DNA from: Sphingosinicella microcystinivorans
Lineage (GTDB): Bacteria > Pseudomonadota > Alphaproteobacteria > Sphingomonadales > Sphingomonadaceae
Assembly (NCBI RefSeq): GCF_027941835.1
Contig: NZ_CP116005.1
Location: 2,991,501 to 3,055,500, forward strand
Reading direction: 5' to 3'
Length of the DNA stretch: 64,000 nucleotides
Within the stretch, counting starts at the first letter, position 1, and every line of letters begins with the position of its first letter. The notes under the pieces are model-generated. The model saw nothing but the letters and a program-made list of their open reading frames with translations. It was not told the origin of the DNA and ran no database searches. Made by a program: the position numbers and the translations under genes. Positions 19,981 through 33,494 of this stretch are shown here, piece after piece.

Positions 19981-20057
19981 GCGCCCGTAGCTCAGCCGGA
20001 TAGAGCACGAGCCTTCTAAGCTTGGGGTCGCAGGTTCGAATCCTGCCGGGCGCGCCA
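19981..20057 (+). tRNA. tRNA-Arg (TCT), integration target
   Basis: A complete 77-base cloverleaf with encoded CCA. The acceptor stem is GCGCCCG/CGGGCGC, the anticodon stem CGAGC/GCTTG with loop CTTCTAA (anticodon TCT), and the T arm GCAGGTTCGAATCCTGC. Its 3' 47 bases are repeated at 30217-30263, marking it as the attachment site of the element that follows. The tRNA gene itself is intact. Confidence 0.97.
20011..20057. repeat. attL core (47-bp direct repeat with 30217-30263)
   Basis: The sequence starting GCCTTCTAAGCTTGGGGTCG and ending CGCGCCA is identical at 30217-30263. It covers the anticodon loop through the CCA end of tRNA-Arg. Bases on both sides of the two copies differ, so the limits are exact. 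Confidence 0.93.
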
Positions 20058-20103
20058 TATTTTCAGACACTTAGCAGTTTCCTAAATTGACCATGTGGCT
20101 TTC

Positions 20104-20121
20104 AGGTAACGCATAGGTAAC
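20104..20121. promoter_or_regulatory. Left-arm AGGTAAC repeats, candidate integrase arm sites
   Basis: AGGTAAC occurs at 20104-20110 and 20115-20121, an 11-base period, about 50 bases inside attL. The same word occurs twice, and once inverted, just inside attR (30086-30121). Tyrosine integrases bind such arm-type repeats. Confidence 0.5.
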
Positions 20122-20147
20122 AAAACGCCCGGCACTGAGGCCAGGCG
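20121..20147 (-). terminator. Rho-independent terminator of the element's minus-strand operon
   Basis: On the minus strand CGCCTGGC and GCCGGGCG form an 8-bp stem (one G-T pair) around CTCAGT, followed by TTTTG. It lies 26 bases beyond the last minus-strand gene of the element. Confidence 0.6.
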
Positions 20148-20173
20148 CTGTGTTCGGGTGGTGGGTTAGGTAT

Positions 20174-20440
20174 TCAGGCGTCATTCTTGATGACAGCCTC
20201 GACTTCGCGGCGCAGGTCTCCAGATATGGCATACCGGGCATCGATGCCGTTGGCGGCAAGAAGCAGGCCGTCAATAAGTGCCCGCAATTCCTCCCGTGAA
20301 TCCTCCATGCGCGGGTCTTCATGAACGCAGTCCAGTAGATCATTCTCCAAGGCAAGGCCGAGAACACCCACAGCGCACCGGTGGAAGCGTCCGAGCGCTT
20401 CAGCGGTCGCGATGTGGTCCAGGATTGTTGGGCGGGTCAT
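20174..20440 (-). CDS. Hypothetical protein of the satellite element
   Basis: An 88-residue mainly helical, slightly acidic protein I do not recognise. It has no signal peptide or membrane segment. The sequence includes HIATAEALGRFHRCAVGVLGL and RREVEAVIKNDA. Its ATG overlaps the stop of the upstream gene by four bases, so it is the last gene of a coupled pair and is followed by the element's terminator. Coupling and good codon structure support it being real. Confidence 0.6.
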   Translation of the reverse strand: MTRPTILDHIATAEALGRFHRCAVGVLGLALENDLLDCVHEDPRMEDSREELRALIDGLLLAANGIDARYAISGDLRREVEAVIKNDA

Positions 20441-20805
20441 TGTCCGGCCTCCCGCACTTCATCGTGGAAACGCAGCAGGCAGAGAAGTATCTGCACCCCG
20501 TCGATCACGTCGGCGGCATCGTCGACATCGGGCTTTCCACCATCGGCAAGGTAGCTCGTCAGAACACTAAGAATCCCGCTGGCGGGGCAGACAATCCTCT
20601 CGACGAAGCCAGCACCTCCAAAGCTTGCGAAAGGCCGATAGTTGTTGATGCCTATGGAGCGGATACGCCCTTCGGTGAGACGGGCCACGAGTTCGTCGCG
20701 GGTCAGGCGCCCCTCCTGATAGGCTTCTAGCAGCTTGTATTCGCTGGAGATGTCGTCATTGGTATTGGTTCGGGCGCACGCCGCCCGTATGCTGGAATCA
20801 GCCAT
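20437..20805 (-). CDS. Hypothetical protein of the satellite element
   Basis: A 122-residue soluble protein of unknown function. The N-terminal part is polar (CARTNTNDDISSEYKLLEAYQEG), then RLTRDELVARLTEG resembles a short helical binding element, and the C-terminal half is more hydrophobic (DVIDGVQILLCLLRFHDEV). Four cysteines are present. It is coupled to the 88-residue gene downstream and divergent from the ribbon-helix-helix gene at 20891. Confidence 0.62.
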   Translation of the reverse strand: MADSSIRAACARTNTNDDISSEYKLLEAYQEGRLTRDELVARLTEGRIRSIGINNYRPFASFGGAGFVERIVCPASGILSVLTSYLADGGKPDVDDAADVIDGVQILLCLLRFHDEVREAGQ

Positions 20806-20877
20806 TATCGCATCCTTTCATGCGGTTTCGGTCAGAGCCGGGTGGAAGGTGGTGCTTTCGCTCGGCTCGATTTTCTA

Positions 20878-20913
20878 GTACGTGATATTTATGCCTGACG
20901 CAATATCTCGTAC
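20878..20913. promoter_or_regulatory. Long inverted repeat over the start of the ribbon-helix-helix gene
   Basis: GTACGTGATATT (20878-20889) and AATATCTCGTAC (20902-20913) are inverted repeats matching at 11 of 12 positions, separated by 12 bases that include the ATG at 20891. Ribbon-helix-helix proteins often repress their own genes through such dyads. Confidence 0.45.
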
Positions 20914-21076
20914 CGGAAAAAGGGGGCGCCCATCGACTGGCGCGATTTCTGTTCATCTGCGCGCCGAGCCTTCATTGATCGAGGCCGTAGACGCATGGCG
21001 CGAGGATCAGCCGGACAAGCCTACGCGGCCGGAAGCTATCCGCAGGCTGGTGGAGAAGGGGCTATCGGGCAAATAG
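20891..21076 (+). CDS. Ribbon-helix-helix DNA-binding protein
   Basis: A 61-residue protein with the ribbon-helix-helix layout: a basic start (RTGKRGRPS), a short strand (AISVHLRAEPSLIEAVDAW) and a second helix (RPEAIRRLVEKGL). This matches small CopG/Arc-like repressors. A GTG at 20882 would add three residues. It is the only rightward gene in the element, and an imperfect dyad overlaps its start, so autoregulation is likely. Confidence 0.65.
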   Translation: MPDAISRTGKRGRPSTGAISVHLRAEPSLIEAVDAWREDQPDKPTRPEAIRRLVEKGLSGK

Positions 21077-21092
21077 CCTGTAAGCACTGCCA

Positions 21093-22895
21093 TCAGCCGA
21101 GATACTTCCGGTTGCGGCGGAGGCCGTTGCGGACGGTGGCGACAGAACCTTGAACGATTGCCGGAGCGGCCCGTGCGACAGTCTGCCCCGAAATCTGCTG
21201 CACGCGGGCATCGAAGTATTGCGACGGCACGATCTCAACGCGGGTCAGGCCGCCGCCCACGTCATTGGCGGGCGTGACCATGCCGCCGACGTTCGGCGTG
21301 AAGTATTCCGGTCCACGCTCGCCGACGAGATAGGTTGTCCCTGCGTCGACTGAACCGCCGAAGGCGCGACCGCCGCCGAAGATTGAGCCGATTGAGGAGA
21401 CGATTGTATTGAACAGACCCCCAAGGCCCGTGCCGCCACTGCCCGAAGCGCTCAACGCCTCCATCTTGGCACGCATCCTGTCGAGGATAGGTTCGATCAC
21501 CAGCATCCGCACGGCAAGACGGGCAAACCATTTCCCGATGTCGTCGAGGTTCTTACCGGCACTGAACGTCAGGTCTTCAAGCGCATCGCCGAGCGCGCCG
21601 ACTGCCTGCTCCCGCATGTACTCCATGCGTTCGCCCGCGCGTTGCAGGGAGTCGATGAGGGGCTGAAAGTTCGCGGCATTCGCGGCGTCGATCTCTGCCA
21701 CGATGTCGGACAGCGGGCGCCCCATTCGCTCCAGCGTGGCGGTGGCGCGCTTTGCGCTTGCGTCCAGATCGGCCAGATAGCCGTCAATGTCTCCAACCGC
21801 GAAGTCGTCGAAGATGCCTTTGGCGGCCCTCACGCCTGTTGAGCGCGTGGGATTCGGGTCTTTGGGGTCGAGCCTGACCCGGGTGCGACCGCTGATCCAG
21901 TCGAGGCCGGTAAGGTTCACGGATGCAAGCCTCGCCGCCGTCCGCTTCTGGTCGGCTTCGATCTGGTCAAGCATCTTTCGGTGTTGCCGAATCAGCTCGT
22001 CCTGCGCGCCTTGCAGGGTTTTGTCGTCATAGAGCCAGGAATTGTTCAGAACGAAATTCGCCTGCGCAGCCCAGTATTTGTCCCAGAGCTTTCCGGCAGC
22101 GTTCCCGATCGCCTCGAAAGCCGTGATCGCATCGGCGGCGAGGATGACGGACTTGGTCTGGATGGCCTCGACGAGCAGATCCCACTTTTCATTGGCATCG
22201 GCGAGCTTCGCGACCATCTCGGTGTCGATGACCTTGCCCGCGCTTCGAAAGTCCGTTTCGGCCTGCTTCAACGCCTTGCCGCCATCGCCGAGCGCCGCCG
22301 CGAGCTGGGTGCCGAACTTCGCGGAAACGAGGTCAGCCGCGATTGATGCTCGCTTGGCCGGGCTATCAATATCGCCGAGAGACTGCGCCAAGGCGTCGAT
22401 CGTCTGGTCTGTCGTCACGATCTCGCCCGACAGAATTTTCGCGCTGATTCCGAGCTTGTCTAGCGCCTTGGTCGCGGCGTTCTCCGCGCCGGACGCCACG
22501 TCGCCTTGGGCCGTGATCAACTTTTGGAGGATCTTCTCGTAGGTCGTCGCATCGACTTCGAGACTGCGGAACGCACCCTTGAGTGTCTGGAACCGCTCGA
22601 CCGAAATGTTCGCCTGATCCGCTGCCGTTGCGAGGTCATCGGCGAAGTCCAGAATCGCCTTGGCGCCGCCCTGTAGAAGCCCAACGCCGATGCCTGCTGC
22701 GAAACCCGCGAGGGTGTTCGTCATCACGGTTGCGGCACTGCCGATCTTTTTGAACGCGCCCTCGACACGCCCACCGATCGTGCGCGCATCCTTGTCGAAA
22801 CGCGAAAGCGTCCGGTTCGCCTTCGCGAGGTCGGCTTCCAGCTTTGTGACCTTCGCCTCAATGTCGATGACAACAGAGCCAATTTTTGTTGCCAT
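21093..22895 (-). CDS. Phage tail tape-measure protein
   Basis: A 600-residue protein in which tape-measure features are clear. The N-terminus is a long coiled-coil (VIDIEAKVTKLEADLAKANR) with a hydrophobic patch at about residues 55-80 (MTNTLAGFAAGIGVGLLQGG). The C-terminal end has GRAFGGSVDAGTTYLVGERG then PEYFTPNVGGMV, the usual closing motif of lambda-like tape measures in alphaproteobacterial prophages. The length would fit a tail near 90 nm if the common 0.15 nm per residue rule holds (inference). Its start overlaps the upstream stop by one base. No other tail gene is present, which is unusual. Confidence 0.86.
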   Translation of the reverse strand: MATKIGSVVIDIEAKVTKLEADLAKANRTLSRFDKDARTIGGRVEGAFKKIGSAATVMTNTLAGFAAGIGVGLLQGGAKAILDFADDLATAADQANISVERFQTLKGAFRSLEVDATTYEKILQKLITAQGDVASGAENAATKALDKLGISAKILSGEIVTTDQTIDALAQSLGDIDSPAKRASIAADLVSAKFGTQLAAALGDGGKALKQAETDFRSAGKVIDTEMVAKLADANEKWDLLVEAIQTKSVILAADAITAFEAIGNAAGKLWDKYWAAQANFVLNNSWLYDDKTLQGAQDELIRQHRKMLDQIEADQKRTAARLASVNLTGLDWISGRTRVRLDPKDPNPTRSTGVRAAKGIFDDFAVGDIDGYLADLDASAKRATATLERMGRPLSDIVAEIDAANAANFQPLIDSLQRAGERMEYMREQAVGALGDALEDLTFSAGKNLDDIGKWFARLAVRMLVIEPILDRMRAKMEALSASGSGGTGLGGLFNTIVSSIGSIFGGGRAFGGSVDAGTTYLVGERGPEYFTPNVGGMVTPANDVGGGLTRVEIVPSQYFDARVQQISGQTVARAAPAIVQGSVATVRNGLRRNRKYLG

Positions 22896-23122
22896 CAGTG
22901 GCCCCTTCCTTGACCGAGGTCGATGCCATCCGCCATCTGGCGCAGGAATGCAGCTACGTCCGTTGCCCGGTACTGGCGAAGTGCGATGGTCGCTCCAGAC
23001 GCCACGGCGACAAGCGAGATTGTCGGGCCTGCCTCAGACAGCAGATTCCGCACGGCGAGCGCCATAGCGACGCTGCTCAGTTCGTATCGCGGGTCCGCGA
23101 CCATCTGCTCGTGCAGGTTCAT
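22895..23122 (-). CDS. Hypothetical 75-residue protein, second of a related pair
   Basis: A small helical protein of unknown function. It ends in VAAFLRQMADGIDLG, which resembles IETLRQMANDLEAA of the gene just upstream, and both have the same length, so they may be diverged duplicates. It overlaps its neighbours on both sides by one to four bases within the capsid-to-tape-measure operon. In ordinary tailed phages this position holds tail assembly chaperones, but I see no direct similarity. Confidence 0.6.
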   Translation of the reverse strand: MNLHEQMVADPRYELSSVAMALAVRNLLSEAGPTISLVAVASGATIALRQYRATDVAAFLRQMADGIDLGQGRGH

Positions 23123-23346
23123 GCGACGCGCTCCGTCGTGTGCGTGGCCGCTTCCAGATCGTTCGCCATCTGGCGCAGCGTCTCGATGACTTCGATGCGC
23201 TCGTAATGCGGCAAGGCCCGCATGGCACTCGCACAGATGGCGAACAGCGCAGCCTTCCGGCCGTGCTGACGAACCGCCGCGTCGATCGTGTCGATCATGG
23301 TCCGCATCAGCGGCTCGTCGCCTTTGAACATGCTTATCGCGTGCAT
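23119..23346 (-). CDS. Hypothetical 75-residue protein, first of a related pair
   Basis: A small helical protein with MIDTIDAAVRQHGRKAALFA and a C-terminal LRQMANDLEAATHTTERVA. The first ATG is at 23346; a second at about 23331 (MFKGDEP) is possible. It overlaps the following 75-residue gene by four bases. Function unknown. The shared LRQMA motif with its neighbour suggests a duplication. Confidence 0.62.
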   Translation of the reverse strand: MHAISMFKGDEPLMRTMIDTIDAAVRQHGRKAALFAICASAMRALPHYERIEVIETLRQMANDLEAATHTTERVA

Positions 23347-23420
23347 CGCGCTTCCTCAGAAAGTTGGGCGGCGACAGAGGAGCAAGCCGCCACCGCCCGG
23401 ATGAGCAGTCCGCCCATCAT
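23334..23420 (-). CDS. Possible 28-residue peptide
   Basis: A short frame beginning MMGGLLIRAVAACSSVAA overlaps the stop of the 56-residue coiled-coil gene in an ATGA arrangement and ends inside the next gene's start. It has a hydrophobic N-terminus and a cysteine, loosely like a lipoprotein signal. It could equally be chance. Confidence 0.2.
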   Translation of the reverse strand: MMGGLLIRAVAACSSVAAQLSEEARCTR

Positions 23421-23587
23421 TTCTTCGCCTGTTTCGATTCGATCCCGGAGAGTCGTTTCTCGATATCGGCAAGGCGGGCCATGCGCTCGATTTCCTTCTC
23501 CAGCGCGTCGATCCGCGCAGTGAGCGGGGCAATCGCCTCACGAATAACGGTGGCCGTCGACTCCGCGATAGCAGTCAGGTCAAGCAT
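23417..23587 (-). CDS. Small coiled-coil protein downstream of the capsid gene
   Basis: A 56-residue protein, MLDLTAIAES...IESKQAKK, made almost wholly of one heptad-rich helix (ARIDALEKEIERMARLADIE) with a basic end. It lies 27 bases after the capsid gene on the same strand. A role in assembly, such as scaffold or tether, is only a guess from position. Short coiled-coil genes like this are frequent in prophage structural operons. Confidence 0.55.
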   Translation of the reverse strand: MLDLTAIAESTATVIREAIAPLTARIDALEKEIERMARLADIEKRLSGIESKQAKK

Positions 23588-23614
23588 GTCGGCCTCCCTT
23601 CGCTTCCACGGCGC

Positions 23615-24673
23615 TCACCAGCTCGCCCCCGTCACATGCGCGACGGCGCCAGCACGACGCGGGGCGAACGCGACGTCGACGAGAAGCCGGAGCGCAACCG
23701 CGTCGGTCTGCCAGAGCGAGCGTACCGGGTCGGCGGTTGCCGGGCCGGTAGAGCTGACGATTTCCAGCGGGGTTTCGTCCTCCATGTGAAGGACCGCCTC
23801 GAGGCTCGCGTCGAGGTCGAAGTCGTCGCCGAACGCGTGCAGGATCGAAGACGGATCGGCCGCGATGATCGTGGTGTCAGCAACCGCCAGCGACGGAAGG
23901 ACGGTCAGGGACCGGGCAAGATCGGGTGCGACAATGTAAAGCCGGGCCGCGCGCTTGGGGGACGTGATGAACATGACCTGGCCTGAGCCGCCATCCGCAA
24001 CGGCATCGGAGAGCGCCGCGAAGTCGGACTCGATGGCGAAGCGGTCGCCGCCGGGATAGCCGTCAATCGGCGCAACGCCGTTCAGCAGGCCGGCGTGCAC
24101 GGTGTCCGTGCCGGCGTCGGTGCTGAAATAGGCCGCATCGAGGCTGGCCGCCGCATCCTCGCGGATGAGACGACGAACGACACGCTCGCCGGATGCGCGC
24201 CTTGCGGCCTCGCGTGAGAGCGCGGCGATAAACCCGAACTTGCGGGGGCTGATCTCGCAATCGTCGTTCAGCGCGTAGCTGCGGACGGGAATGGGCTGGC
24301 CCTCGCCGATCCAGTGAACGTCGGTCGACGGCGCTCCGGTGCGCTGCGGAAACTTCTGCTCCTTCGCAGCGCCGAGCGGCACGGAAAGGCCAGCCGCGAT
24401 CAGTGCTGCCGCGGCCGAATGCGGGGCAAGCGATTCGAGGAAATCACCGACGAGGCTTTGCGAAATCTCGGCGGCGAAACCGCTGTCGGCGGTCGTGCCG
24501 AGCGGTGCGGTAGCGCGTGTGACGACGGCCGCGACCGCCTTGTCTTTCTGGAAAACGTCGAGCGCGCGTTCGGCAAGCGAACGGCCGTCGTTTTTCGACG
24601 CACCGACGACGAGCGCGACGAGCGCGGATTCGAGGGTGCGGCTGCGGGTACGTGAGGGGATTGCTGCGAGCAT
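23615..24673 (-). CDS. HK97-like major capsid protein
   Basis: A 352-residue protein whose C-terminal two thirds follow the HK97 capsid fold family. Hallmarks are VHWIGEGQPIPV (start of the folded domain), PRKFGFIAALSREAARRASG, AYFSTDAGTDTVHAGLLNGV and the closing SLWQTDAVALRLLVDV...RRAG...VTGASW. Residues 1-100 may act as a scaffold-like delta region. No separate prohead protease or fused protease domain is visible. It is the first large gene of the structural operon, and a satellite with its own capsid gene is comparable to capsid-forming PICIs. Confidence 0.85.
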   Translation of the reverse strand: MLAAIPSRTRSRTLESALVALVVGASKNDGRSLAERALDVFQKDKAVAAVVTRATAPLGTTADSGFAAEISQSLVGDFLESLAPHSAAAALIAAGLSVPLGAAKEQKFPQRTGAPSTDVHWIGEGQPIPVRSYALNDDCEISPRKFGFIAALSREAARRASGERVVRRLIREDAAASLDAAYFSTDAGTDTVHAGLLNGVAPIDGYPGGDRFAIESDFAALSDAVADGGSGQVMFITSPKRAARLYIVAPDLARSLTVLPSLAVADTTIIAADPSSILHAFGDDFDLDASLEAVLHMEDETPLEIVSSTGPATADPVRSLWQTDAVALRLLVDVAFAPRRAGAVAHVTGASW

Positions 24674-24696
24674 GAGAGATCCTTTCGGCAGCGATT

Positions 24697-24951
24697 CTAC
24701 CGCGCCGCCCGGGCAGGAGAGAGTAACGGCGTTACGGTTTTTTCATCCACGATCTGAAGATCGCCAATCATGCGCTCCAGCCCTGCGGTGAGGGCATCGG
24801 GATCGTCGGTCTCGGAAAGATACCCGGCGGCGATGAGCAGCGCGAACGTCCGGTGCTCGTCGACTTCGACGCGTATAGAGCGCAGGCCGTAACGCTGGCG
24901 CTTGCGGAACCGGCGCTGGCGATCTGCGGCAGATGCGCGGGCGCCACTCAT
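24697..24951 (-). CDS. Small basic protein at the head of the structural operon
   Basis: An 84-residue protein with a strongly basic N-terminus (SAADRQRRFRKRQRYGLRSIRVEVDE) followed by an acidic helical half (LIAAGYLSETDDPDALTAGL). I recall short proteins with the pattern RQRRFRxRQRxGL in many alphaproteobacterial prophages, without known function. The Arg-rich head could bind nucleic acid. It lies 23 bases before the capsid gene. Confidence 0.65.
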   Translation of the reverse strand: MSGARASAADRQRRFRKRQRYGLRSIRVEVDEHRTFALLIAAGYLSETDDPDALTAGLERMIGDLQIVDEKTVTPLLSPARAAR

Positions 24952-25663
24952 GAAATCCTACGCCCGCACCGGGGAAACCGGCGGGGAACCTTTCTTGCCC
25001 TAATCGCCCTGAGAAAAGTTTTCTCATACACGCACGCGCGCGCGCGCGATGCCAAAATTCCTGTGTTAGCGATGAAAGGATGGGTCCTCGCCGGTTTCCC
25101 GCATCGAGGCCGCAGATTTTGAGGCCGCGCCCCCCGCGGGCCAATCTTGCATATTGGACATCTCAGAACGTCAATTTGCAAACGCGCACTGCGAAACCAC
25201 ATTGAGCATTTCAGGATTTTAATTTGGCTTTGCGAAAGATTCTGGCCCGCGTCGGTTTCCCCGGTGCGCGGCTGATATTTCCCGGCCGTGCCCCCAGCGC
25301 TGATGTCACGGCCGATGCTGCCAATGTTACGATTTATGCCTCGCGCAGGTCCGCGTCGGTTTCCCGATCGGTGCAGCCGGGTTTCCCCGATACCCCCGAG
25401 GGGGGCGCTTCCGGAAATCCCGGCGACGCGTTCGCGTAAACCGGGTGGGAAGGTCTTTTTTTGCGCAGGCGAATTAAATTTGCAAACCGAATGGATTTTC
25501 AACTTGCGGTTGTGCGGCCGGTTATTTGCCCCACCTTGCGGCCGTGAAGTGAGGCGGCGCCTCACCACTTTGCCCCGCCCACCTATAGAGGTGGGGCGAG
25601 GCACGTTCTTTAGTGGGATTTGCCCCACTTTGCCCCGCCTCACGTTTGAAAGTGGGGCACCCA
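24952..25663. other. Non-coding, repeat-rich region; candidate satellite origin
   Basis: No credible gene is present in these 712 bases. GGTTTCCC occurs at 25093, 25254, 25358 and 25380, and inverted at 24972. CCACTTTGCCCCGCC occurs twice (25565-25579 and 25625-25639), with further TGCCCCAC/GTGGGGCA words, and GTGAGGCGGCGCCTCAC at 25549-25565 is a perfect palindrome. An alternating CG run lies near 25030-25046, and AT-richer stretches lie at about 25142-25240 and 25465-25510. Repeats, AT-rich segments and the adjoining primase-helicase fit a replication origin; promoters for the structural operon may also be here. Confidence 0.45.
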
Positions 25664-27601
25664 TCACGCGGCTCTCTGAACGGCGCTGTCGATCATGGTG
25701 CCGACGCGCACAAACTTACGCACGTTCCGCTTCTCGTCCTTGCCTTCCACCTCGCGCAGCACGTCCGACTTGATCCAGCCTTTGATGAGTTCCTTGACGC
25801 GCGTCTTATCGTTCGGGATTTCGAGGTCAGCGCCGATCACGTCGGCGACGGCGATGCCTACCCACTCGTCCGACTGCACGCTCGCCCGCCACTGGCCATC
25901 TGCAACCTTCGCCTGAACAGCGCGTAGTGTGTGGTGGTCGATGCCCTCGAAAGCATCGGGCGGCGTCCACGGCACGGCCACGGCCACGCTGTCTCCGCCT
26001 TCGAGGCCGCCGTTGCCCAGATGCACGCCTACGGCCCTGATCCAGTCCGCCTTGGCGGGCGGTGCCCGGTTCAGTTTGTCATTGAGGACATTGACGTACA
26101 GGCGGCGCTCGGCATCGTCGGTGATACCGAAACGCTCACCTTCCTCTTTCGTCATTCGGTTGAACACCAGCACCGTGCGCGCGGTATTGATGAGCGCGAC
26201 GGCACCGCGTCCAGCCTCTGCGGTCACTGTCTGGCCGGCCAGCTTGCGGGTGTGGTGGACGAGGACGATCGCGCATCCGCATTCCGTCGCCAGCTTCGCC
26301 CAGCGCTTCGAAACCGCGTCGATCTTGTTGTTGTCGTTCTCCGACACCTGATGCGAGGATACGAACGGATCGACGATCAGCACGTCTATGCTGCGCCGCT
26401 TCAGCTCGGCGGCGAGGGCTTCATATACCGGCTCGATGATACGGAAGCCGGTCGCATCCTCGACCGCGGTGCAAAGCCCTTGGCCGGTCAGGCCGCTATC
26501 CACGAACAGGCGGTCGCCGCAGTTGTCCCGGCTGATGCCGTAATGGATTGCGCCGGCCACGAACATGCGGTCGAGTTCGTCCATCGGATCTTCGAGGTTC
26601 CAGAACCACACGCGCTGGGGGCCGCCCCAAACGGTTTTCCCGAGCAGAGCGCGGCCCGTGACCAGCGAAAGCGCCGTCGTCACCATGTACGTGCTCTTGA
26701 GGCTCCCGCCGCCTGCGATGACGCCTGTGATCGTCCCGCGCAGAAGTTCTCTGCCCAGAATCCATGGACGCAGGGGAATGCCCGCCGGGTCGGGCCAGCC
26801 GAAGGGCGTGGCGGTGATTTCAATCGCGGCAGATTGCCGTGATTGAAGGCTTGCCGTCGAGGCGAGCTGCCTCAGTTCCTCGGCAGTGCCGCCTGCCGCC
26901 TTCCAATCCACAACATCGCCCTTGGGCGGTAGGCCGGGAAGCTCCACAAAGAACGCCTTGCCGCCGTGGCTTTCAATCGAGGCCCGGACCTTCTCCGCGA
27001 AGCCTCGGCCGGGATCGTCATTGTCGGGGAGGATCGCGACCGGGCGACCGTTGAAATAGGCGCCGAAAGCATCCTTCCATCCGCCGTTGGCGCCGAACGC
27101 GACGGCCGTCGCCGTGAAGCCCCACGCCGCCAGCGTATCCGCCTTGCGCTCGCCCTCGACGACATAGACGACGGTATCGAGCGGCGTGGCGAGAAGCTCG
27201 GGCAGGCGGTACGGGATGCGCTCGATGCCTTTGATGCCCGCGGTCCATCCGCCTTTGCCGTCCGGTCGCTGGGCTATGAAGTCCTTGCCGCCGGGTTTGT
27301 CCACGCGCACGGTGCGATAGAGAACGGTCCCGTCACTGTCGACGTACTCATAGTGCCCGGATTCCCGGCTACGGGGCGCGTCACGGTTCAGGGGCGGCAA
27401 GATGCCCCGATCGCGCAGATCGTCCTTCACGGCCTGCCAGTCGGCCCCATTGAAGCTGTTTATGAGGATGTCCTGCCCGTCGTCCGTGTTCCGGATCGAA
27501 AGCCCGCGATCATCCTTGCCGTGGCCGGGTGACGGCGCCGTGCCATAATCGCCGTGCCAGTCGCCGCCGAGGGCTATCGTGGCTTTGCGCGCGAGGCTCA
27601 T
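25664..27601 (-). CDS. Primase-helicase (TOPRIM + RepA-like AAA ATPase)
   Basis: A 645-residue replication protein. A TOPRIM domain lies at about residues 130-240, with VVYVVEGERKADTL (catalytic Glu) and AILPDNDDPGRG (Asp pair). The RepA-like helicase ATPase has the Walker A variant IAGGGSLKSTYM, Walker B DVLIVDPFVSSHQVSEND and sensor region CAIVLVHHTRK. The C-terminal 100 residues look like a winged-helix tail. The ATG at 27601 (MSLARKATI) overlaps the upstream stop by four bases. It would start element replication, as in P4-like and PICI satellites. Confidence 0.88.
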   Translation of the reverse strand: MSLARKATIALGGDWHGDYGTAPSPGHGKDDRGLSIRNTDDGQDILINSFNGADWQAVKDDLRDRGILPPLNRDAPRSRESGHYEYVDSDGTVLYRTVRVDKPGGKDFIAQRPDGKGGWTAGIKGIERIPYRLPELLATPLDTVVYVVEGERKADTLAAWGFTATAVAFGANGGWKDAFGAYFNGRPVAILPDNDDPGRGFAEKVRASIESHGGKAFFVELPGLPPKGDVVDWKAAGGTAEELRQLASTASLQSRQSAAIEITATPFGWPDPAGIPLRPWILGRELLRGTITGVIAGGGSLKSTYMVTTALSLVTGRALLGKTVWGGPQRVWFWNLEDPMDELDRMFVAGAIHYGISRDNCGDRLFVDSGLTGQGLCTAVEDATGFRIIEPVYEALAAELKRRSIDVLIVDPFVSSHQVSENDNNKIDAVSKRWAKLATECGCAIVLVHHTRKLAGQTVTAEAGRGAVALINTARTVLVFNRMTKEEGERFGITDDAERRLYVNVLNDKLNRAPPAKADWIRAVGVHLGNGGLEGGDSVAVAVPWTPPDAFEGIDHHTLRAVQAKVADGQWRASVQSDEWVGIAVADVIGADLEIPNDKTRVKELIKGWIKSDVLREVEGKDEKRNVRKFVRVGTMIDSAVQRAA

Positions 27602-27807
27602 AGATACCCCACGATCGGCAATCCGCCGTAGTGGGCACTCGCGATGTCGGCTGAAACCTGAGCTTGCTCGAATGTCTCCACGCGCGCCCACGCCCCATAA
27701 GAACCGCCGCCCGGCCCCTCATGTTCAATGAAATATTGCCCGTCATCTTCCTTGCGGATGAGGATCTGACCACGATCACGGGCAGGGAACAGGACGAGTT
27801 CACCCAT
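27598..27807 (-). CDS. Small hypothetical protein upstream of the primase
   Basis: A 69-residue protein starting MGELVLFPARDRGQILIRKE and continuing with IEHEGPGGGSYGAWARVETF. It looks like a small beta-rich fold. The ATG at 27807 overlaps the upstream gene by eight bases, and its stop overlaps the primase start by four, so it belongs to the replication operon. Function unknown. Confidence 0.6.
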   Translation of the reverse strand: MGELVLFPARDRGQILIRKEDDGQYFIEHEGPGGGSYGAWARVETFEQAQVSADIASAHYGGLPIVGYL

Positions 27808-28075
27808 GCCGCACCCCGATTCCCCGCTCGCTCGCCTCGACGGCGGCGCGCTCGTTCGCCTCGTCGGTGTCCAGTCCGGCGGCGATCGTGATAATGTGCC
27901 CAAGCGCTTCCCCGAACAGGGCAACGGCGTGGCCGTCCTCGCGCTTCAGGACGCGGATATGGAGGCGGGGACCTTGCGGGTTCTGGTGAAATGGGGTATC
28001 AGGGTGTTCGCGAGAGCATCCCTGAGCGCCTGCCACCCCCCCGGCAGGCGTTCGTCGTTTCGGGGGCCTTCTCAT
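27800..28075 (-). CDS. Small hypothetical protein downstream of alpA
   Basis: A 91-residue protein with a basic, Pro-rich N-terminus (RRPPKRRTPAGG) and a more regular C-terminal half (RLHIRVLKREDGHAVALFGE, then TDEANERAAVEASERG). It overlaps AlpA by four bases at its start and the next gene by eight at its end. Unknown function; operon position suggests a replication or regulatory accessory. Confidence 0.6.
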   Translation of the reverse strand: MRRPPKRRTPAGGVAGAQGCSREHPDTPFHQNPQGPRLHIRVLKREDGHAVALFGEALGHIITIAAGLDTDEANERAAVEASERGIGVRHG

Positions 28076-28263
28076 GCCGCCTCCGACGCCGCGATCTTGC
28101 TGGCAATCCACTGGCGCACGTCGCTTTCGCGGTAAGCCTTGCGGTGCGGCATGATCTGGATCGCACGCGGGAAGTCGCCTTCGCTTTCCAGCCTCCAGAT
28201 GGTGGTGCGGCTCAGGCTCGTAAGGTCACAAGCGCGAGCAACCGTAATCAGTCTGTCGTCCAC
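28072..28263 (-). CDS. alpA: AlpA-family regulator / excisionase
   Basis: A 63-residue winged-helix/MerR-like DNA-binding protein: VARACDLTSLSRTTIWRLES, then DFPRAIQIMPHRKAYRESDV and RQWIASKIAA. This is the AlpA pattern. AlpA proteins activate integrase transcription or act as excision factors in satellites and integrative elements. It starts the replication operon, and a short dyad lies upstream (28305-28321). Confidence 0.9.
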   Translation of the reverse strand: MDDRLITVARACDLTSLSRTTIWRLESEGDFPRAIQIMPHRKAYRESDVRQWIASKIAASEAA

Positions 28264-28304
28264 TTTGACGCCTCCAATGTTTCAGGGCGTCATGGACATT
28301 AGCG

Positions 28305-28321
28305 TTCAACTCACGGTTGAA
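28305..28321. promoter_or_regulatory. Dyad upstream of alpA
   Basis: TTCAAC and GTTGAA are perfect inverted 6-mers separated by five bases, about 42 bases upstream of the alpA start. This fits a small operator, perhaps for the element's own regulator or a helper-phage protein. A second inverted repeat, GGGGGACG/CGTCCCCC (28334-28341 and 28361-28368), lies between it and the next gene. Confidence 0.35.
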
Positions 28322-28369
28322 AACAAGCTAGATGGGGGACGATTTTCGCGAACGGGAATCCGTCCCCCG

Positions 28370-28957
28370 CTATCCGCCGAGTAGATACTCCCATGCCTGC
28401 CAGCGGTTCAGGCCAGCGGGTTCGACGAACTTCAGGGCGTCCCGCACTGTGGTGCGATCAGGATCAGCCCTCCCAATGGATTCTGCCAAGGTTCCGACGA
28501 TGCGGACGACTTGGCCGGTTGACCGCGCATCGACTACGCCCCCCGCGCCCATGACGGCATAGCCCACATCCACAATCAATGTGGACAGCGTCGAAAGGTC
28601 TTTTCGATGGTCGCGATCTTGACGTTCGGCAAGCGACGCGGCGAGTGCGGCCAATTTGTCCAGATGATCGGGAAGGCGACCATATGCACCGCGCCCGAGC
28701 GTGCGCCGCAGCAGCTCCGATTCGAGGGTGTAGCCATCAATCTTTGCCATTGCCGCCCGCAGCTTCACCGCCGCGTCGAGAGCATCGATCATCGCTTTGT
28801 TACGTTCGCGTAGCGGGGGCCCCTTCGGATGGTTAGGCTCCTTCCGCCATGTCCAGAGACTGGTGTTCACGGATCGCAGACGGATGTCGGGACATATCTT
28901 TTCGATTTTGGCCACGGTCGCGTCGTCGATGCTCGAATACTGGCTATACCTCCGCAT
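28370..28957 (-). CDS. Hypothetical protein coupled to the integrase
   Basis: A 195-residue soluble, mostly helical protein. Its start overlaps the end of the integrase gene by 14 bases, so it is probably co-expressed with it. The N-terminal part DDATVAKIEKICPDIRLRSV followed by LWTWRKEPNHPKG could be a DNA-binding helical domain, but I see no firm family. The ATG at 28957 is chosen since residues upstream are antisense-like overlap with the integrase. Confidence 0.62.
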   Translation of the reverse strand: MRRYSQYSSIDDATVAKIEKICPDIRLRSVNTSLWTWRKEPNHPKGPPLRERNKAMIDALDAAVKLRAAMAKIDGYTLESELLRRTLGRGAYGRLPDHLDKLAALAASLAERQDRDHRKDLSTLSTLIVDVGYAVMGAGGVVDARSTGQVVRIVGTLAESIGRADPDRTTVRDALKFVEPAGLNRWQAWEYLLGG

Positions 28958-30080
28958 TCGCCAGCCTCCCGACTTCCACCGCCCACGCATCCAGCGCCGC
29001 GCGCTTTTCCGGCTCATAGCTGTGCAGGGCATAGACCCGCGCCGTCACGCCGACGCTGGCATGATTCAGCACGCGGCCGACGACCGTTTCGAGCACGCCC
29101 AGCCGGACCATATGGGTTGCGACCGATCGGCGGATATCGTGGAAGCGCCAAGGGGGCAGGGGAGGCCCACCAGCCGCGAGGAAGGCGTCGAGACGGGTCT
29201 TGGCCTTGGCGTATCCAGATATGTGGCTGGAGCCGTCCGACGTCCAAACATGGTCGCCCATTCGCGGCGTGGCTTCGAGCAGCGCGACAGCGGCGGCTGA
29301 CAGCGGCACAAGATGCGAGCGCGCGGACTTCGTGGCAGGCGCGGGCAAGACCCACGTTCCCGCTTTCAAGTCGATGTCATCCCATCGCATCGAGGCGACT
29401 TCCGTCCGCCGTTGGCCCGTCAACACCATCAACTTGACGAAACCCGCGAGCGGATAGCCGAGAAGGTCGGCGGCGGCGTATACGCGCCTGATCTCGTCCA
29501 TATCGAGCACGCGGTCGCGGGGGGCCTCGTCCTTCGGCTTTGTGATCGCTTCGGCCGGGCTGGCCTCCAGCCAGTCGCGCGACATGGCGTAACGAAACAG
29601 GGTCCGCACCAGCGTCAACACGCGGTTCGGGTTTACGTCGCCCTCGATGCCCTCAACCAGTTCGCGCACGTCGGCGCGGCGGATGCCGTCTAGCTGGCGA
29701 TCCCGCCATGAAGGCAGCACATGGATTTCGAGGCGGCGTTTCTGGAGCGTCCAAGACTTGTTCTTGTCCTTCGCCACGTTGTCGATCCAGTGATCCACGA
29801 GTTCGCCAAAGGTACGCCGAGCGCGGGGCTGGCCCTCCTTGGCGAGCGTGATCAGGAAATTGCGGGCGCTGTCGCGGGCACTGGCGAGCGATAGCGTCGG
29901 ATAAGGCCCAAGTCCCTTGTTCACGACCTTGCCGCCTGCACGGGCACGCACGATCCATGCTTTGCGGCCACCTGCGCCGACGCGAAGGCGAAGGCCCTGT
30001 ACCAGATCGTCAGCGTGTTCCTCTTGCCCGGTGGCGGGCGGCTTGATCGCGGCCACCCTCGCGTCGGTCAGTCTTGCCAC
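28944..30080 (-). CDS. int: Tyrosine integrase
   Basis: A 378-residue site-specific recombinase responsible for integration at tRNA-Arg. The N-terminal DUF4102-like arm-binding domain is followed by a core-binding domain (FGELVDHWIDNVAKDKNKSW) and the catalytic domain. Catalytic residues are visible: Arg in TGQRRTEVASM, Lys in PATKSARSH, His and Arg in FHDIRRSVATH, His in LNHAS and the Tyr in ARVYALHSY. It starts 137 bases from attR and reads inward. Arm-site repeats lie between its start and attR. Confidence 0.95.
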   Translation of the reverse strand: MARLTDARVAAIKPPATGQEEHADDLVQGLRLRVGAGGRKAWIVRARAGGKVVNKGLGPYPTLSLASARDSARNFLITLAKEGQPRARRTFGELVDHWIDNVAKDKNKSWTLQKRRLEIHVLPSWRDRQLDGIRRADVRELVEGIEGDVNPNRVLTLVRTLFRYAMSRDWLEASPAEAITKPKDEAPRDRVLDMDEIRRVYAAADLLGYPLAGFVKLMVLTGQRRTEVASMRWDDIDLKAGTWVLPAPATKSARSHLVPLSAAAVALLEATPRMGDHVWTSDGSSHISGYAKAKTRLDAFLAAGGPPLPPWRFHDIRRSVATHMVRLGVLETVVGRVLNHASVGVTARVYALHSYEPEKRAALDAWAVEVGRLANAEV

Positions 30081-30085
30081 GTCCT

Positions 30086-30204
30086 GTTACCTATTCTGCC
30101 TTAGGTAACGGATTAGGTAACAGGACGTGCAACTACATGCAACAGAGTGAACAACATGAACGGCTGAATTGCTTGCCTTCAAACGATATGCAACACCATG
30201 CAAC
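30086..30204. promoter_or_regulatory. Right-arm repeats, candidate integrase arm sites and int promoter
   Basis: AGGTAAC lies at 30103-30109 and 30115-30121, and inverted (GTTACCT) at 30086-30092. A second word, RTGCAAC, lies at 30127, 30137, 30188 and 30198, in two pairs each spaced ten bases, one helical turn. This double set between the integrase start and attR fits arm-type sites. Confidence 0.5.
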
Positions 30205-30216
30205 GCCGTCTGACAC

Positions 30217-30263
30217 GCCTTCTAAGCTTGGGGTCGCAGGTTCGAATCCTGCCGGGCGCGCCA
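30217..30263. repeat. attR core (copy of tRNA-Arg 3' end)
   Basis: Identical over 47 bases to 20011-20057. It contains only the 3' part of tRNA-Arg from the anticodon loop to CCA, with no 5' half upstream, so it is a remnant and not a second tRNA gene. Confidence 0.93.
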
Positions 30264-30407
30264 ATTCCACCGAGGTCTATTCCGGTCCGCTGAGGTTCCG
30301 TCCGGCGCACGTTCTATGTATGTTGGCAGTGCCCAGCCGACCGGCGGAGGCTCGGAATGCACCTGCTTCAGAGTCTGAGACGGACCAGCCCGTCAAGGAG
30401 AAAAGCC

Positions 30408-30896
30408 ATGAGATTCGGAACACTGCACGGCGTCGCGATTGCCCTTCTGGCTCTGACCGACGCCAATCCACTACACGCGCAGGCGCAGCAGACACCACCC
30501 GCCCCGCGGATTACGCTCGAGGAGGCCCGCGTCGCGATGGACGCCGCCGAGGCCGAGGCTCGCAGCAACAGATGGAATCTCGCTTTCGTGATCACGGATG
30601 CCGAGGCCACTCCGATCTATGTACGGCGTATGGACGAGGTGCCTACGCGGAACTACGAGATCGCGATGAACAAGGTCCAGACGGCGATCACGTCCGGAAT
30701 GCACACGGCCGAGTATGCCGCTGCGGTTAAGGCGCAGCGGATACAGCCCATCGAGGGGGCGCTCACGTTCGATGGGGGGCTGCTGCTGCGAAGAGGCGGC
30801 CAGGTCGTGGGGGCGTTCAGTGCGAGCGGCGCCCGCGGTGCGGAAGATGCTCAGGCCGTGCGTGCCGGGATGGCGGCCATCGGCATCGAGCCGTAG
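30408..30896 (+). CDS. Exported GlcG/HbpS-like haem-binding family protein
   Basis: A 162-residue protein with a signal peptide (GVAIALLALTDANPLHA) and a GlcG/HbpS (DUF336) domain. The domain is marked by ITLEEARVAMDAAEAEARSN, LAFVITDAEATPIYVRRMD and the closing PIEGALTFDGGLLLRRGG with GAFSASGA. Members bind haem or cobalamin-like ligands or are of unknown function. AAGGAG lies eight bases before the ATG at 30408. It is the first chromosomal gene after attR, so it lies outside the element. Confidence 0.85.
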   Translation: MRFGTLHGVAIALLALTDANPLHAQAQQTPPAPRITLEEARVAMDAAEAEARSNRWNLAFVITDAEATPIYVRRMDEVPTRNYEIAMNKVQTAITSGMHTAEYAAAVKAQRIQPIEGALTFDGGLLLRRGGQVVGAFSASGARGAEDAQAVRAGMAAIGIEP

Positions 30897-31108
30897 TCCG
30901 GAGTCGTTAGCCGCGGCTGGTGGTACGGAGTGGCTGCTTGGCTTAGGCTTGGCGCATCAGCTGCCGCTCACCGGGATCCGCTGGTGCGAATCCGAGCAAG
31001 CCGTTTAAGTGCTATCCCATTCGGTCAGGGTTGCGAATAACGCGTTTGCCGAAGGGCAAACGCGACGTGAAAAGTTCGCCGCGGCAGTGTCGTCCGTGAT
31101 CGAGAATA

Positions 31109-31137
31109 TTGACATGATTCCCGGCCGGTGCTCTAGA
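31109..31137 (+). promoter_or_regulatory. Candidate promoter of the riboswitch/nrdD transcript
   Basis: A perfect -35 hexamer TTGACA at 31109-31114 is followed after 17 bases by TCTAGA, a weak -10, placing transcription start just before the riboswitch. A 10-bp hairpin, CGCGTTTGCC / GGCAAACGCG (31041-31064), lies upstream with unknown role. Confidence 0.35.
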
Positions 31138-31147
31138 TGTAGTGGTC

Positions 31148-31324
31148 GTGGTCCTTTGAATCGCAAGATCAAGGGTTAAAAGGGAAGCCGGTGCGCCTTC
31201 GGGCAAGGCCGGTGCTGTCCCCGCAACTGTAAGCGGCGAGCCGCTGTCGATCGTGTCACTGACGCAGGTTCAAGCGTCGGGAAGGCCAGACAGCCGCTGT
31301 GACCCGCGAGCCAGGAGACCTGCC
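31148..31324 (+). ncRNA. Cobalamin riboswitch
   Basis: The conserved elements occur in order: AAAAGGGAAGCCGGTG (31178-31193), GCTGTCCCCGCAACTGTAAG (the B12 box region, about 31214-31233), CACTG, GGGAAGGCCAGACAGC and the closing GAGCCAGGAGACCTGCC (about 31308-31324). This is the standard adenosylcobalamin riboswitch pattern. It lies in the leader of the class III ribonucleotide reductase genes, about 125 bases before the nrdD start. The likely effect is repression of the B12-independent anaerobic enzyme when cobalamin is plentiful. Confidence 0.94.
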
Positions 31325-31448
31325 GCGACACCATGAACGTCCTCGGGCGGGGTGTCCCGGTGGTCGCTTGCTGGTGGCCGGCTGCTTGAGCCGACCCGTT
31401 TTCCCGCAGGCGTCTGCCCCGGCCTTGCCCCAACCCAGTGGGGTGCCG

Positions 31449-33494
31449 ATGTCTGAACTGTCCGATCTGTCTCAAGGCAATTCCCTGCGCGCCGCATTGC
31501 CGCGGGCGATCGTCAAGCGCGGCGGCGAGACGACCGTCTTCGATGCCGGCAGGATCTGCTCCGCGATCGCGCGTGCCGGTCAGGCCAGCGGCGGGTTCGG
31601 CGGCGAGGAAGCCGATCGACTCACGCATGAGGCGGTCAAGGTGATCGCGCACCGCTTCGCCGGCTCGACGCCGCACATCGAGGACGTGCAGGACATCGTC
31701 GAGCAGGTGTTGATCGCGGCCGACCATGTCGCGACCGCGCGCGCCTATGTCGTCTATCGCGAGAAGCGCGGACAGGCGCGGCAGGACCGGAAGACGGTGG
31801 TCGACGTCGCCGTCTCCATCAATGAATATCTCGACCGCACCGACTGGCGCGTCAACGCCAACGCCAACCAGGGCTATTCGCTGGGCGGGCTCATCCTCAA
31901 CCTTTCCGGCAAGGTCGTCGCCAACTACTGGCTGTCGCACATCTATCCGCCGGAAGTCGGCCGCGCCCATCGCGAGGGCGACATCCACATTCACGACCTC
32001 GACATGCTGGCCGGCTACTGCGCCGGCTGGTCGCTGCGCATGTTGTTGACCGAAGGGCTGAACGGCGTGCCCGGCAAGATCGAGGCGGGTCCGCCGAAGC
32101 ACCTGTCGAGCGCGGTCGGGCAGATCGTCAATTTCCTCGGTACGCTGCAAAACGAATGGGCGGGCGCGCAGGCGTTCAGCTCGTTCGATACCTACATGGC
32201 GCCGTTCATCCGCAAGGACCGGCTCGGCTACGGCGAGGTGCTGCAATCAATTCAGGAACTGATCTACAACCTCAACGTCCCCTCGCGCTGGGGCACGCAG
32301 ACGCCTTTCACAAATCTCACCTTCGACTGGATCTGTCCGGAGGACCTGCGCGACCAGGTGCCGATCGTCGGCGGCGAGGAGATGGATTTCACCTATGGCG
32401 ACCTTCAGTCCGAAATGGACATGATCAACCGCGCCTACATGGAGGTGATGACCAAAGGCGACGCCAAGGGGCGCGTCTTCACGTTCCCGATCCCGACCTA
32501 CAACATCACGCCGGATTTCCCGTGGGACAGCGAGAACGCCGACCACCTGTTCGAGATGACGGCGAAGTACGGCCTGCCCTATTTCCAGAACTTCATCAAT
32601 TCCGAGCTGAAGCCGAACATGATCCGCTCGATGTGCTGCCGGCTCCAACTCGACCTCACCGAGTTGCTGAAGCGCGGCAACGGCCTGTTCGGCAGCGCCG
32701 AGCAGACCGGCTCGATCGGCGTGGTCACCGTCAATTGCGCGCGGCTCGGCCATCTCTGTCGCGGCAACGAGGCGGGCCTGTTCCAGCGCCTCGACACGCT
32801 GCTTGAGACCGGCCGCAACAGCCTCGAGATCAAGCGCAAGGTGGTGCAGCACTATATGGACAGCGGGCTGTTCCCTTACAGCAAGCGCTATCTCGGCACG
32901 CTTCGCAACCACTTCGCGACGCTCGGCGTCAACGGCATCAACGAGATGATCCGCAACTTCACTGCCGACTGCGAGACCATCGCCACGCCCTGGGGCCATG
33001 CCTTCGCCGTGCGCCTGCTCGACCACGTGCGGTCGCGCATCCGGGAATTCCAGGAGGAAACCGGCAGCCTGTTCAATCTGGAGGCGACGCCGGCGGAAGG
33101 CACCACCTACCGCTTCGCCAAGGAAGACCGCAAGCGCTACCCCGGCATCCTGCAGGCCGGCACCGACGAGAACCCCTATTACACCAATTCGAGCCAGCTT
33201 CCGGTCGGCTTCACCGACGATCCGTTCGAGGCGCTCGAGCGTCAGGACGAATTGCAGCGTAAATATACCGGCGGCACCGTGCTGCATCTCTATATGGGCG
33301 CGCGCCTGTCGTCCGGCGCGGCGTGCAAGAAGCTGGTGCGTCGTGCCCTCACCAACTTCCACCTGCCGTACATCACGGTGACGCCGACATTCTCGATCTG
33401 TCCGACCCACGGCTATCTCGAAGGCGAGCACGCCTTCTGTCCGAAATGCGATGCCGAACGACTCGCAGCCAAGCGGCAGGCCGCCGCACGTTGA
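31449..33494 (+). CDS. nrdD: Anaerobic (class III) ribonucleoside-triphosphate reductase, main subunit
   Basis: A 681-residue oxygen-sensitive enzyme that makes dNTPs. An N-terminal ATP-cone (IVKRGGETTVFDAGRICSAI) is followed by the NrdD barrel (GDIHIHDLDMLAGYCAGWSL, LQNEWAGAQAFSSFDTYMAPF, SRWGTQTPFTNLTFDW). The C-terminal zinc-site region is ICPTHGYLEGEHAFCPKC. The frame stops soon after, without the RVxGY glycyl-radical loop, which is encoded by the next gene. The ATG at 31449 (MSELSDLSQ) is used because upstream residues would translate the riboswitch. It begins an operon with the radical subunit and nrdG. Confidence 0.93.
   Translation: MSELSDLSQGNSLRAALPRAIVKRGGETTVFDAGRICSAIARAGQASGGFGGEEADRLTHEAVKVIAHRFAGSTPHIEDVQDIVEQVLIAADHVATARAYVVYREKRGQARQDRKTVVDVAVSINEYLDRTDWRVNANANQGYSLGGLILNLSGKVVANYWLSHIYPPEVGRAHREGDIHIHDLDMLAGYCAGWSLRMLLTEGLNGVPGKIEAGPPKHLSSAVGQIVNFLGTLQNEWAGAQAFSSFDTYMAPFIRKDRLGYGEVLQSIQELIYNLNVPSRWGTQTPFTNLTFDWICPEDLRDQVPIVGGEEMDFTYGDLQSEMDMINRAYMEVMTKGDAKGRVFTFPIPTYNITPDFPWDSENADHLFEMTAKYGLPYFQNFINSELKPNMIRSMCCRLQLDLTELLKRGNGLFGSAEQTGSIGVVTVNCARLGHLCRGNEAGLFQRLDTLLETGRNSLEIKRKVVQHYMDSGLFPYSKRYLGTLRNHFATLGVNGINEMIRNFTADCETIATPWGHAFAVRLLDHVRSRIREFQEETGSLFNLEATPAEGTTYRFAKEDRKRYPGILQAGTDENPYYTNSSQLPVGFTDDPFEALERQDELQRKYTGGTVLHLYMGARLSSGAACKKLVRRALTNFHLPYITVTPTFSICPTHGYLEGEHAFCPKCDAERLAAKRQAAAR

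Follow-up and report, generated by a model that had tools for sequence, protein, structure and literature searches.

What can an integrated element do with a capsid gene and a tail gene of its own if it has no recognisable means of packaging DNA? The question is raised by positions 20011-30263 of a 64,000-nucleotide stretch of the Sphingosinicella microcystinivorans genome (contig NZ_CP116005.1; hereafter the window, to which all coordinates refer unless a locus number precedes them). The integrated element found there measures 10,206 bp from the start of one flanking repeat to the start of the other, and encodes a lone major capsid protein (MCP) and a tape-measure protein (TMP). We think it is probably a phage satellite that replaces part of its helper's head and the core of its helper's tail. 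Relatives with the same lone coat gene occur in other bacteria, which suggests that the element swaps parts of its own into a helper's head and tail.

Capsid and tape-measure genes of the element

The original prediction described a 10.2-kb element between perfect 47-bp attachment (att) repeats, carrying int, alpA, a primase-helicase, an HK97-like capsid gene and a tape-measure gene. Two identical 47-nt copies indeed bound the element, the left one inside tRNA-Arg(tct), and family matches bear out all five genes. With its integrase and direct repeats, the element has the site-specific integrated form generally expected of phage satellites.

The 352-aa MCP matches the profile phrog_617 'major head protein' only over positions 310-626 of 626, the capsid half (9.9e-16); the front of this profile (24-171) is matched by a separate phage protease (4.6e-19). 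An AlphaFold2 model of the MCP (alignment of 20 sequences; mean pLDDT 74.8, pTM 0.75) gave 275 Foldseek matches in the PDB at E <= 0.001, to HK97-fold shells, with chains of SaPI1, HK97 and encapsulin among the first 50. On this model, the MCP has the HK97 fold, and its first ~55 residues are predicted, with moderate confidence, to be helical. The protein retains many residues conserved among its phage relatives.

For the 600-aa TMP, 12 of the 18 PHROGs listed are tape-measure families (best 1.8e-15). Two phage TMPs align with it. One, of 610 aa, belongs to a prophage that has terminase and portal genes and comes from a different genus of the same family (34% over 569 positions); the other, of 633 aa, is that of Microcystis phage Mae-JY04 (32% over 545 positions, 45% over the first 270). 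Because these alignments cover most of its length, the element's TMP is not a fragment; being about as long as both phage proteins, it would make a tail shorter only if the helper's own TMP exceeded it in length. The TMP was matched in 228 of 396 genomes of the order, many of the matches listed covering only the C-terminal part in short frames of ~190-210 aa, and in part in four phage records; the viral scan confirmed no close relative. Both long frames, MCP and TMP, are open and coding-like by codon usage.

The predicted lack of terminase, portal, protease and lysis genes was also borne out, in that PHROGs and Pfam named no such family for 16 open reading frames (ORFs) of the element; the lone exception among lysis-type matches is a sub-threshold Rz-like row for the TMP itself (0.057, PHROGs). 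A direct search with seven large terminase subunit (TerL), five portal and four protease sequences gave no match in the element. Nor was there a match at 1e-3 in any frame of at least 50 aa across 15 elements, namely the 12 compared below with L188, L294 and L270. In that search all seven control phage loci gave TerL and portal and six of the seven gave protease; control loci L022 and L024 had also supplied query sequences and L075 had supplied one. A search of this kind would miss distant families.

The features of the element are as follows, the minus-strand genes in their order from the integrase to the two small ORFs that follow the TMP gene. The sole plus-strand gene encodes the repressor-like protein.

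20011-20057, plus: left att repeat, the 3' end of an intact tRNA-Arg(tct) (19981-20057)
30217-30263, plus: right att repeat, identical to the left copy at 47 of 47 nt
28944-30080, minus: tyrosine integrase, 378 aa (PF00589 7.7e-23; Arm-DNA-bind_3 2e-13)
28370-28954, minus: 194-aa ORF overlapping int (sub-cut-off matches only)
28072-28263, minus: AlpA-like excisionase/regulator, 63 aa (PF05930 1.1e-10; phrog_2790 3.1e-14)
27598-28111, minus: two small overlapping ORFs, 103 and 108 aa (the first with one weak match to an unknown PHROG, the second with none; neither with a Pfam match)
25664-27691, minus: primase-helicase (PF13481 (AAA_25) 2.5e-30; phrog_239 5.6e-34; Toprim below cut-off)
24952-25663, no strand: apparently non-coding stretch, possibly a replication origin (four exact copies of GGGAAACCGNCG in 24972-25365, and inverted repeats)
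24697-24951, minus: 84-aa protein upstream of the MCP (no family match)
23615-24673, minus: lone HK97-fold MCP (from the model), 352 aa, with a predicted short helical N-terminal segment and no protease part
23417-23587, minus: 56-aa gene directly after the MCP, coiled-coil-like (helicity by eye; sub-cut-off Pfam matches only, one to a coiled-coil DUF)
23119-23346, minus: 75-aa protein, a candidate for a tail assembly chaperone by its position beside the TMP (similar to the following ORF, 35% over 37 aa)
22895-23122, minus: 75-aa protein, candidate tail assembly chaperone by position (adjoins the TMP, its end overlapping the TMP start)
21093-22895, minus: TMP, 600 aa, full length
20882-21076, plus: 64-aa repressor-like protein (phrog_4738 transcriptional repressor 5.1e-6; no Pfam match)
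20174-20805, minus: two overlapping ORFs, 122 aa (weak matches only) and 88 aa (no match)

The primase-helicase, whose relatives occur in phages, probably starts at the ATG at 27601, giving 645 aa and a 4-nt overlap with the upstream stop. Across the 712-nt stretch that follows, a 239-aa GTG frame is open; it is not called by codon usage and has no family match in PHROGs or Pfam. With one mismatch allowed, the GGGAAACCGNCG pattern has nine matches in the whole window, against a mean of 2.45 and a maximum of eight in 100 shuffles. The two related 75-aa ORFs upstream of the TMP have no informative PHROG or Pfam match. The tight gene overlaps described earlier are present at five junctions (int and the 194-aa ORF, 11 nt; the 108-aa ORF and primase, 4; the two 75-aa ORFs, 4; the second of these and the TMP, 1; the 122- and 88-aa ORFs, 4), but gaps of 106, 70, 287 and 712 nt separate other genes.

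Lone-MCP islands and the descent of their coat proteins

Matches to the MCP, mostly short, occur in 15 of 396 genomes of the order, and the class gave 2 of 385 genomes, or 13 of 385 in a profile search, the element's own genome included in both counts. No relative above ~40% identity was met in our searches; close relatives were absent from phage records and the first viral scan held one locus. Where an MCP relative is found, it usually sits in a longer frame: the listed MCP frame reaches at least 518 aa in 74 of 80 IMG/VR loci, and the 26 genome-contig loci comprise 19 long fused frames (633-755 aa), five lone-MCP elements and two partial frames.

Lone-MCP elements were collected from the order and class genome searches, the genome-contig scan and a plasmid search, and 12 were compared: that of the window and those at L058, L059, L159, L160, L162, L163, L164, L187, L189, L224 and L225. 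Their hosts belong to the family of the window's host, to other families of its class, and to Rhizobiales, Lysobacteraceae and Cupriavidus. In nine of the 12 the limits are set by direct repeats at a tRNA, giving sizes of 9.5-11.2 kb, a range that fits a small shell of the P4/SaPI class; the ends of L059, L164 and L189 are not placed. From start to start of the repeats, the islands measure 10,206 bp (window), 10,803 (L058), 10,404 (L159), 11,176 (L160), 10,123 (L162), 9,473 (L163), 10,769 (L187), 10,654 (L224) and 11,002 (L225), some repeats being short or imperfect (L058, 25 nt at 96%; L160, 29 nt at 93%; L162, 20 nt at 95%; L224, 26 nt at 88%). Since the stretches mostly extended ~10 kb either side of the MCP, longer elements could have shown; L160 lies on a short contig, which favours a short element. 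Two IMG/VR loci, L294 and probably L270, resemble these islands but show no ends. A short gene, helical by eye, directly follows the MCP in 10 of the 12 islands (not in L159 or L163).

Five further loci were not counted: L252 and L258 resemble tail modules of phages that hold a lone MCP, L236 resembles a remnant, and L161 and L165 have only partial MCP frames. The L187 island has a near-copy at L188 (Sinorhizobium M103), whose MCP frame is apparently broken. Defence-like cargo occurs in three islands: a DprA-like gene with two genes lacking a Pfam match (L225:3968-6502), a cytosine methylase with Vsr (L164:7851-9482) and DUF4238 (L187:11825-14603).

A search elsewhere for the gene order of the window's element, as had been proposed, succeeded for one element, L160 in a Sinorhizobium metagenome-assembled genome. 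There, after the MCP, come two small genes and then a TMP of 802 aa that includes a VanY domain (phrog_8892 1.1e-63; PF06791 4.1e-11), related over 94% of its length, at 26%, to that of Rhizobium phage 16-3. This second case indicates that an MCP paired with a TMP, in the absence of packaging genes, originated or persisted in two distant hosts. In L224, the MCP and three short genes are followed by a 590-aa protein (L224:6701-8473) that looks spike-like by sequence reading; it has no PHROG match and one sub-cut-off Pfam match, to an unrelated domain. A 19.7-kb Ochrobactrum plasmid (L237:6667-10130) holds a primase/polymerase gene and a 441-aa protein resembling part of the L160 TMP.

How old are these lineages? 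We built a tree of 86 MCPs after removal of identical rows (12 from satellites, 12 second MCPs of two-MCP phages and 62 fused; every second locus of L060-L138 was sampled), rooted at the midpoint for drawing only. The satellite label requires three changes on this tree, against 11.5 in shuffles, and in none of the bootstrap trees do the satellite rows all group together. Of the 12 satellite MCPs, ten fall outside the smallest group that holds all 62 phage protease-MCP fusions, making recent decay of a known prophage unlikely. The tree suggests that the satellite lineages are old, and there is probably more than one.

The same family includes phages with two MCPs, found on 11 IMG/VR phage contigs (L117, L123, L132, L138, L169, L171, L174, L177, L181, L183 and L185) and in a Bradyrhizobium prophage (L151). 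In addition to a protease fusion, each encodes a separate lone MCP of ~345-440 aa, whose gene usually lies between those for terminase and fusion and in some cases follows the portal gene. All 12 second copies group in a single clade (99/94) and perhaps contribute to mixed shells.

Helper, integration site and rival explanations

If the element is a satellite, the following course can be proposed. It would integrate in tRNA-Arg and, once a helper siphophage became active, use its own primase-helicase to replicate. The lone MCP (352 aa; the Ccm protein of the Staphylococcus aureus pathogenicity island SaPIbov5 has 355) would join or build the shell, giving a mixed capsid in the former case, and force a small head for ~10-11 kb. 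Its TMP would replace that of the helper to give a chimeric tail, as in the phage-inducible chromosomal island-like elements (PLEs) of Vibrio cholerae, and the small genes beside the TMP perhaps act as chaperones. The helper would supply portal, terminase, protease, tail tube and tail tip. In this proposal the roles in integration, replication and regulation rest on gene families, and those of the MCP and TMP on the examples of Ccm and the PLEs.

The suggestion to look for a helper prophage with matching portal and terminase succeeded in part. Profile phrog_2 has no match in the genome, and the single match to the portal family PF04860 lies in a siphophage prophage, whose genes include terminase (phrog_9), portal, protease, MCP (phrog_10), adaptor and TMP; nothing ties this prophage to the element. 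Searched with the element's MCP profile, the genome yielded no other relative. With the prophage MCP dissimilar and no further relative present, we name no helper.

At the integration site, four of the five other genomes of the genus have good matches to the tRNA-Arg site, and in these the following stretch of up to 1.5 kb lacks the element. Only weak matches came from the fifth genome, a 78% complete assembly of the same species in 680 contigs. The window's right flank is not at the tRNA-Arg site in the genomes of the genus, where only fragments of it occur. This flank (30264-31900) is thus strain-specific within the genus, and the tRNA-Arg site may therefore be a hotspot for islands.

Several observations count against the satellite interpretation. 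The element is known here from its sequence, with no excision, induction or particle observed, and, owing to the strain-specific right flank, a clean empty site is not shown. The co-resident prophage has an MCP without profile similarity to that of the element (hhalign probability 0.3%, one sequence against a profile) and a 1376-aa TMP with no BLAST match to the element's, which also discounts it as the source of either gene. No small terminase subunit (TerS) was recognised in the element, although a clear one is present in L058 (PF05119 2e-19) and a weak match in L224 (0.0076). Such searches could overlook a TerS of a new family, and TerS-like-looking genes in L159 and L162 have no family match. 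Only two of the 12 lone-MCP elements have a TMP, and relatives of neither satellite TMP occur among the ORFs of at least 40 aa in the other ten, where an unrelated TMP would be missed. Finally, the MCPs of L159 and L162 lie inside the fused group, near its base, and because the satellite branches are long, several joins are unsure; those pairing the window's MCP with L189, L160 with L163 and L058 with L225 are possibly false.

Could the MCP and TMP instead be leftovers without a present role, in a prophage that has lost its packaging, portal and most tail genes? The apparently broken MCP frame of L188 and the sequence-only basis of the element favour this idea, as does the survey of where the two genes meet. 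Four of 196 loci with an MCP relative also hold a weak relative of the element's TMP, and many of these loci end before the expected TMP position. Phages of this MCP family at L097, L121 (with its near-copy L124) and L267 have weakly similar TMPs of 600-644 aa, and those at L150, L283 and L065 have relatives of the L160 TMP; one phage ancestor is thus possible for either element. However, both long frames remain open and coding-like, the MCP branches deeply with no relative above the identity level given, the phage loci that hold the two closest TMP relatives (L024, L055) have no MCP relative at 1e-5, and islands of the same reduced layout and similar size are found in unrelated hosts. We therefore consider a functionless reduced prophage unlikely. 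A recent deletion derivative is not favoured by the MCP tree and the co-occurrence survey, and the original preference for a satellite over a recently decayed prophage is upheld by the intact att repeats and frames, the relatives in other genera that resemble it in size and layout, and the deep-branching MCPs; an old reduction from a phage is possible.

Another idea, which we hold to be less probable still, is that MCP and TMP serve mainly as weapons, dominant-negative parts that jam both head and tail assembly of the helper with an effect like that of Tai or Rta while the element travels in unmodified helper particles. Satellite interference with tail assembly is described in a published account (PMC11364771), and the defence-like cargo of other lone-MCP islands fits such a role. 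The TMP is nevertheless full length, more than a jamming fragment needs, and in PLEs the satellite TMP is reported to be built into the particle (PMC12987554). A further variant concerns the shell alone and is compatible with the satellite interpretation: the MCP would by itself form the whole of a satellite-specific shell, and the helper would contribute only the portal, the motor, the protease and the remaining tail parts, an arrangement nearer to capsid-forming phage-inducible chromosomal islands (cf-PICIs). The many conserved residues of the MCP agree with this, as does the short gene found after it in 10 of the 12 islands, which perhaps encodes a scaffold or decoration protein; yet Ccm of SaPIbov5, the closest functional parallel, is described as unable to form shells alone (PMC8569155), and no portal, connector or protease was found beside the MCP. 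We regard an MCP-only shell as possible, at rather less than even chances.

We return to the preferred reading, a satellite that substitutes parts of head and tail. A broader and more tentative extension, which we rate as somewhat unlikely, is that lone-MCP islands of ~10.5 kb form a separate, widespread satellite type of Alpha-, Beta- and Gammaproteobacteria that hybridises both ends of the helper particle. The coat protein would reshape the head, and a plug-in slot after the MCP would accept tail parts (a TMP in two islands; in a third, a spike-like protein). Control over the size of the head, the core of the tail and perhaps host recognition would then lie with the satellite, and only the portal, motor, tube and tip would be taken from the helper. 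With a private TMP, a satellite might also enter cells whose resident prophage excludes the helper's TMP, an idea that reportedly goes back to work on phage HK97.

Comparison with known satellites

Each strategy alone has been published; what appears new here, judged from gene content, is the combination of MCP and TMP without portal or terminase. Our literature search, whose scope excluded the original cf-PICI paper and most subscription papers, found no satellite with both a lone MCP and a TMP. Lone-MCP islands may escape satellite finders built on terminase and portal models. If our reading is correct, the element would allow a direct test of whether private satellite TMPs set tail length, dodge tail-targeting defences or pass superinfection exclusion.

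The original prediction likened the element to cf-PICIs. It shares with them an MCP of its own, but cf-PICIs by definition also bring protease, portal, connectors, TerS, TerL and HNH, as set out in the portion of PMC10690885 drawn on here. None of these was recognised in the window's element, which is hence not a cf-PICI as so defined. A cf-PICI would depend on the helper for whole tails; this element has its own TMP, but putative tmp genes are also reported in a sampling of cf-PICIs (PMC12987554, legend to Extended Data Fig. 10). The PISP satellite-plasmid TG93 is likewise ~11 kb long with its own capsid protein, and neither portal nor large terminase is mentioned in the available part of its description; it differs in having a capsid protein E of PF03864 type, a protease and a small terminase, and in being a plasmid without integrase or tail gene (PMC13230959).

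The closest parallel for the coat protein is SaPIbov5, whose 355-aa Ccm has the HK97 fold and forms the pentons of a T=4 shell (PMC8569155). In both satellites an HK97-fold MCP homologue of ~350 aa, by model in the window's case, is encoded with no protease identified, and the helper supplies portal and the rest of the shell in SaPIbov5, as we propose here. An 87-residue part of Ccm is cleaved off, and the window MCP has a predicted helical front of ~55 residues. The two differ in host phylum and in the satellite TMP, none being mentioned for SaPIbov5 in the portion of that paper considered; for the present element, moreover, no helper is named.

For the tape measure, the V. cholerae PLEs provide experimental precedent for a satellite TMP that replaces the core of a helper's tail: the PLE TMP is found in chimeric tails, and deletion of tmp cuts transduction by 96-99.9% (PMC12987554; March 2026). 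Both encode a TMP, the rest of the tail coming from the helper in PLEs and, by our proposal, here. According to the same account, PLEs have contractile tails and a recognised tail assembly chaperone, with BhuB in addition in PLE11, and PLE11 virions are built with the helper's coat protein; the window's element has only candidate chaperones, by position, and an MCP of its own. If the proposal holds, the coat substitution of SaPIbov5 and the tape-measure substitution of the PLEs would be joined in 10 kb, outside the hosts in which each was shown.

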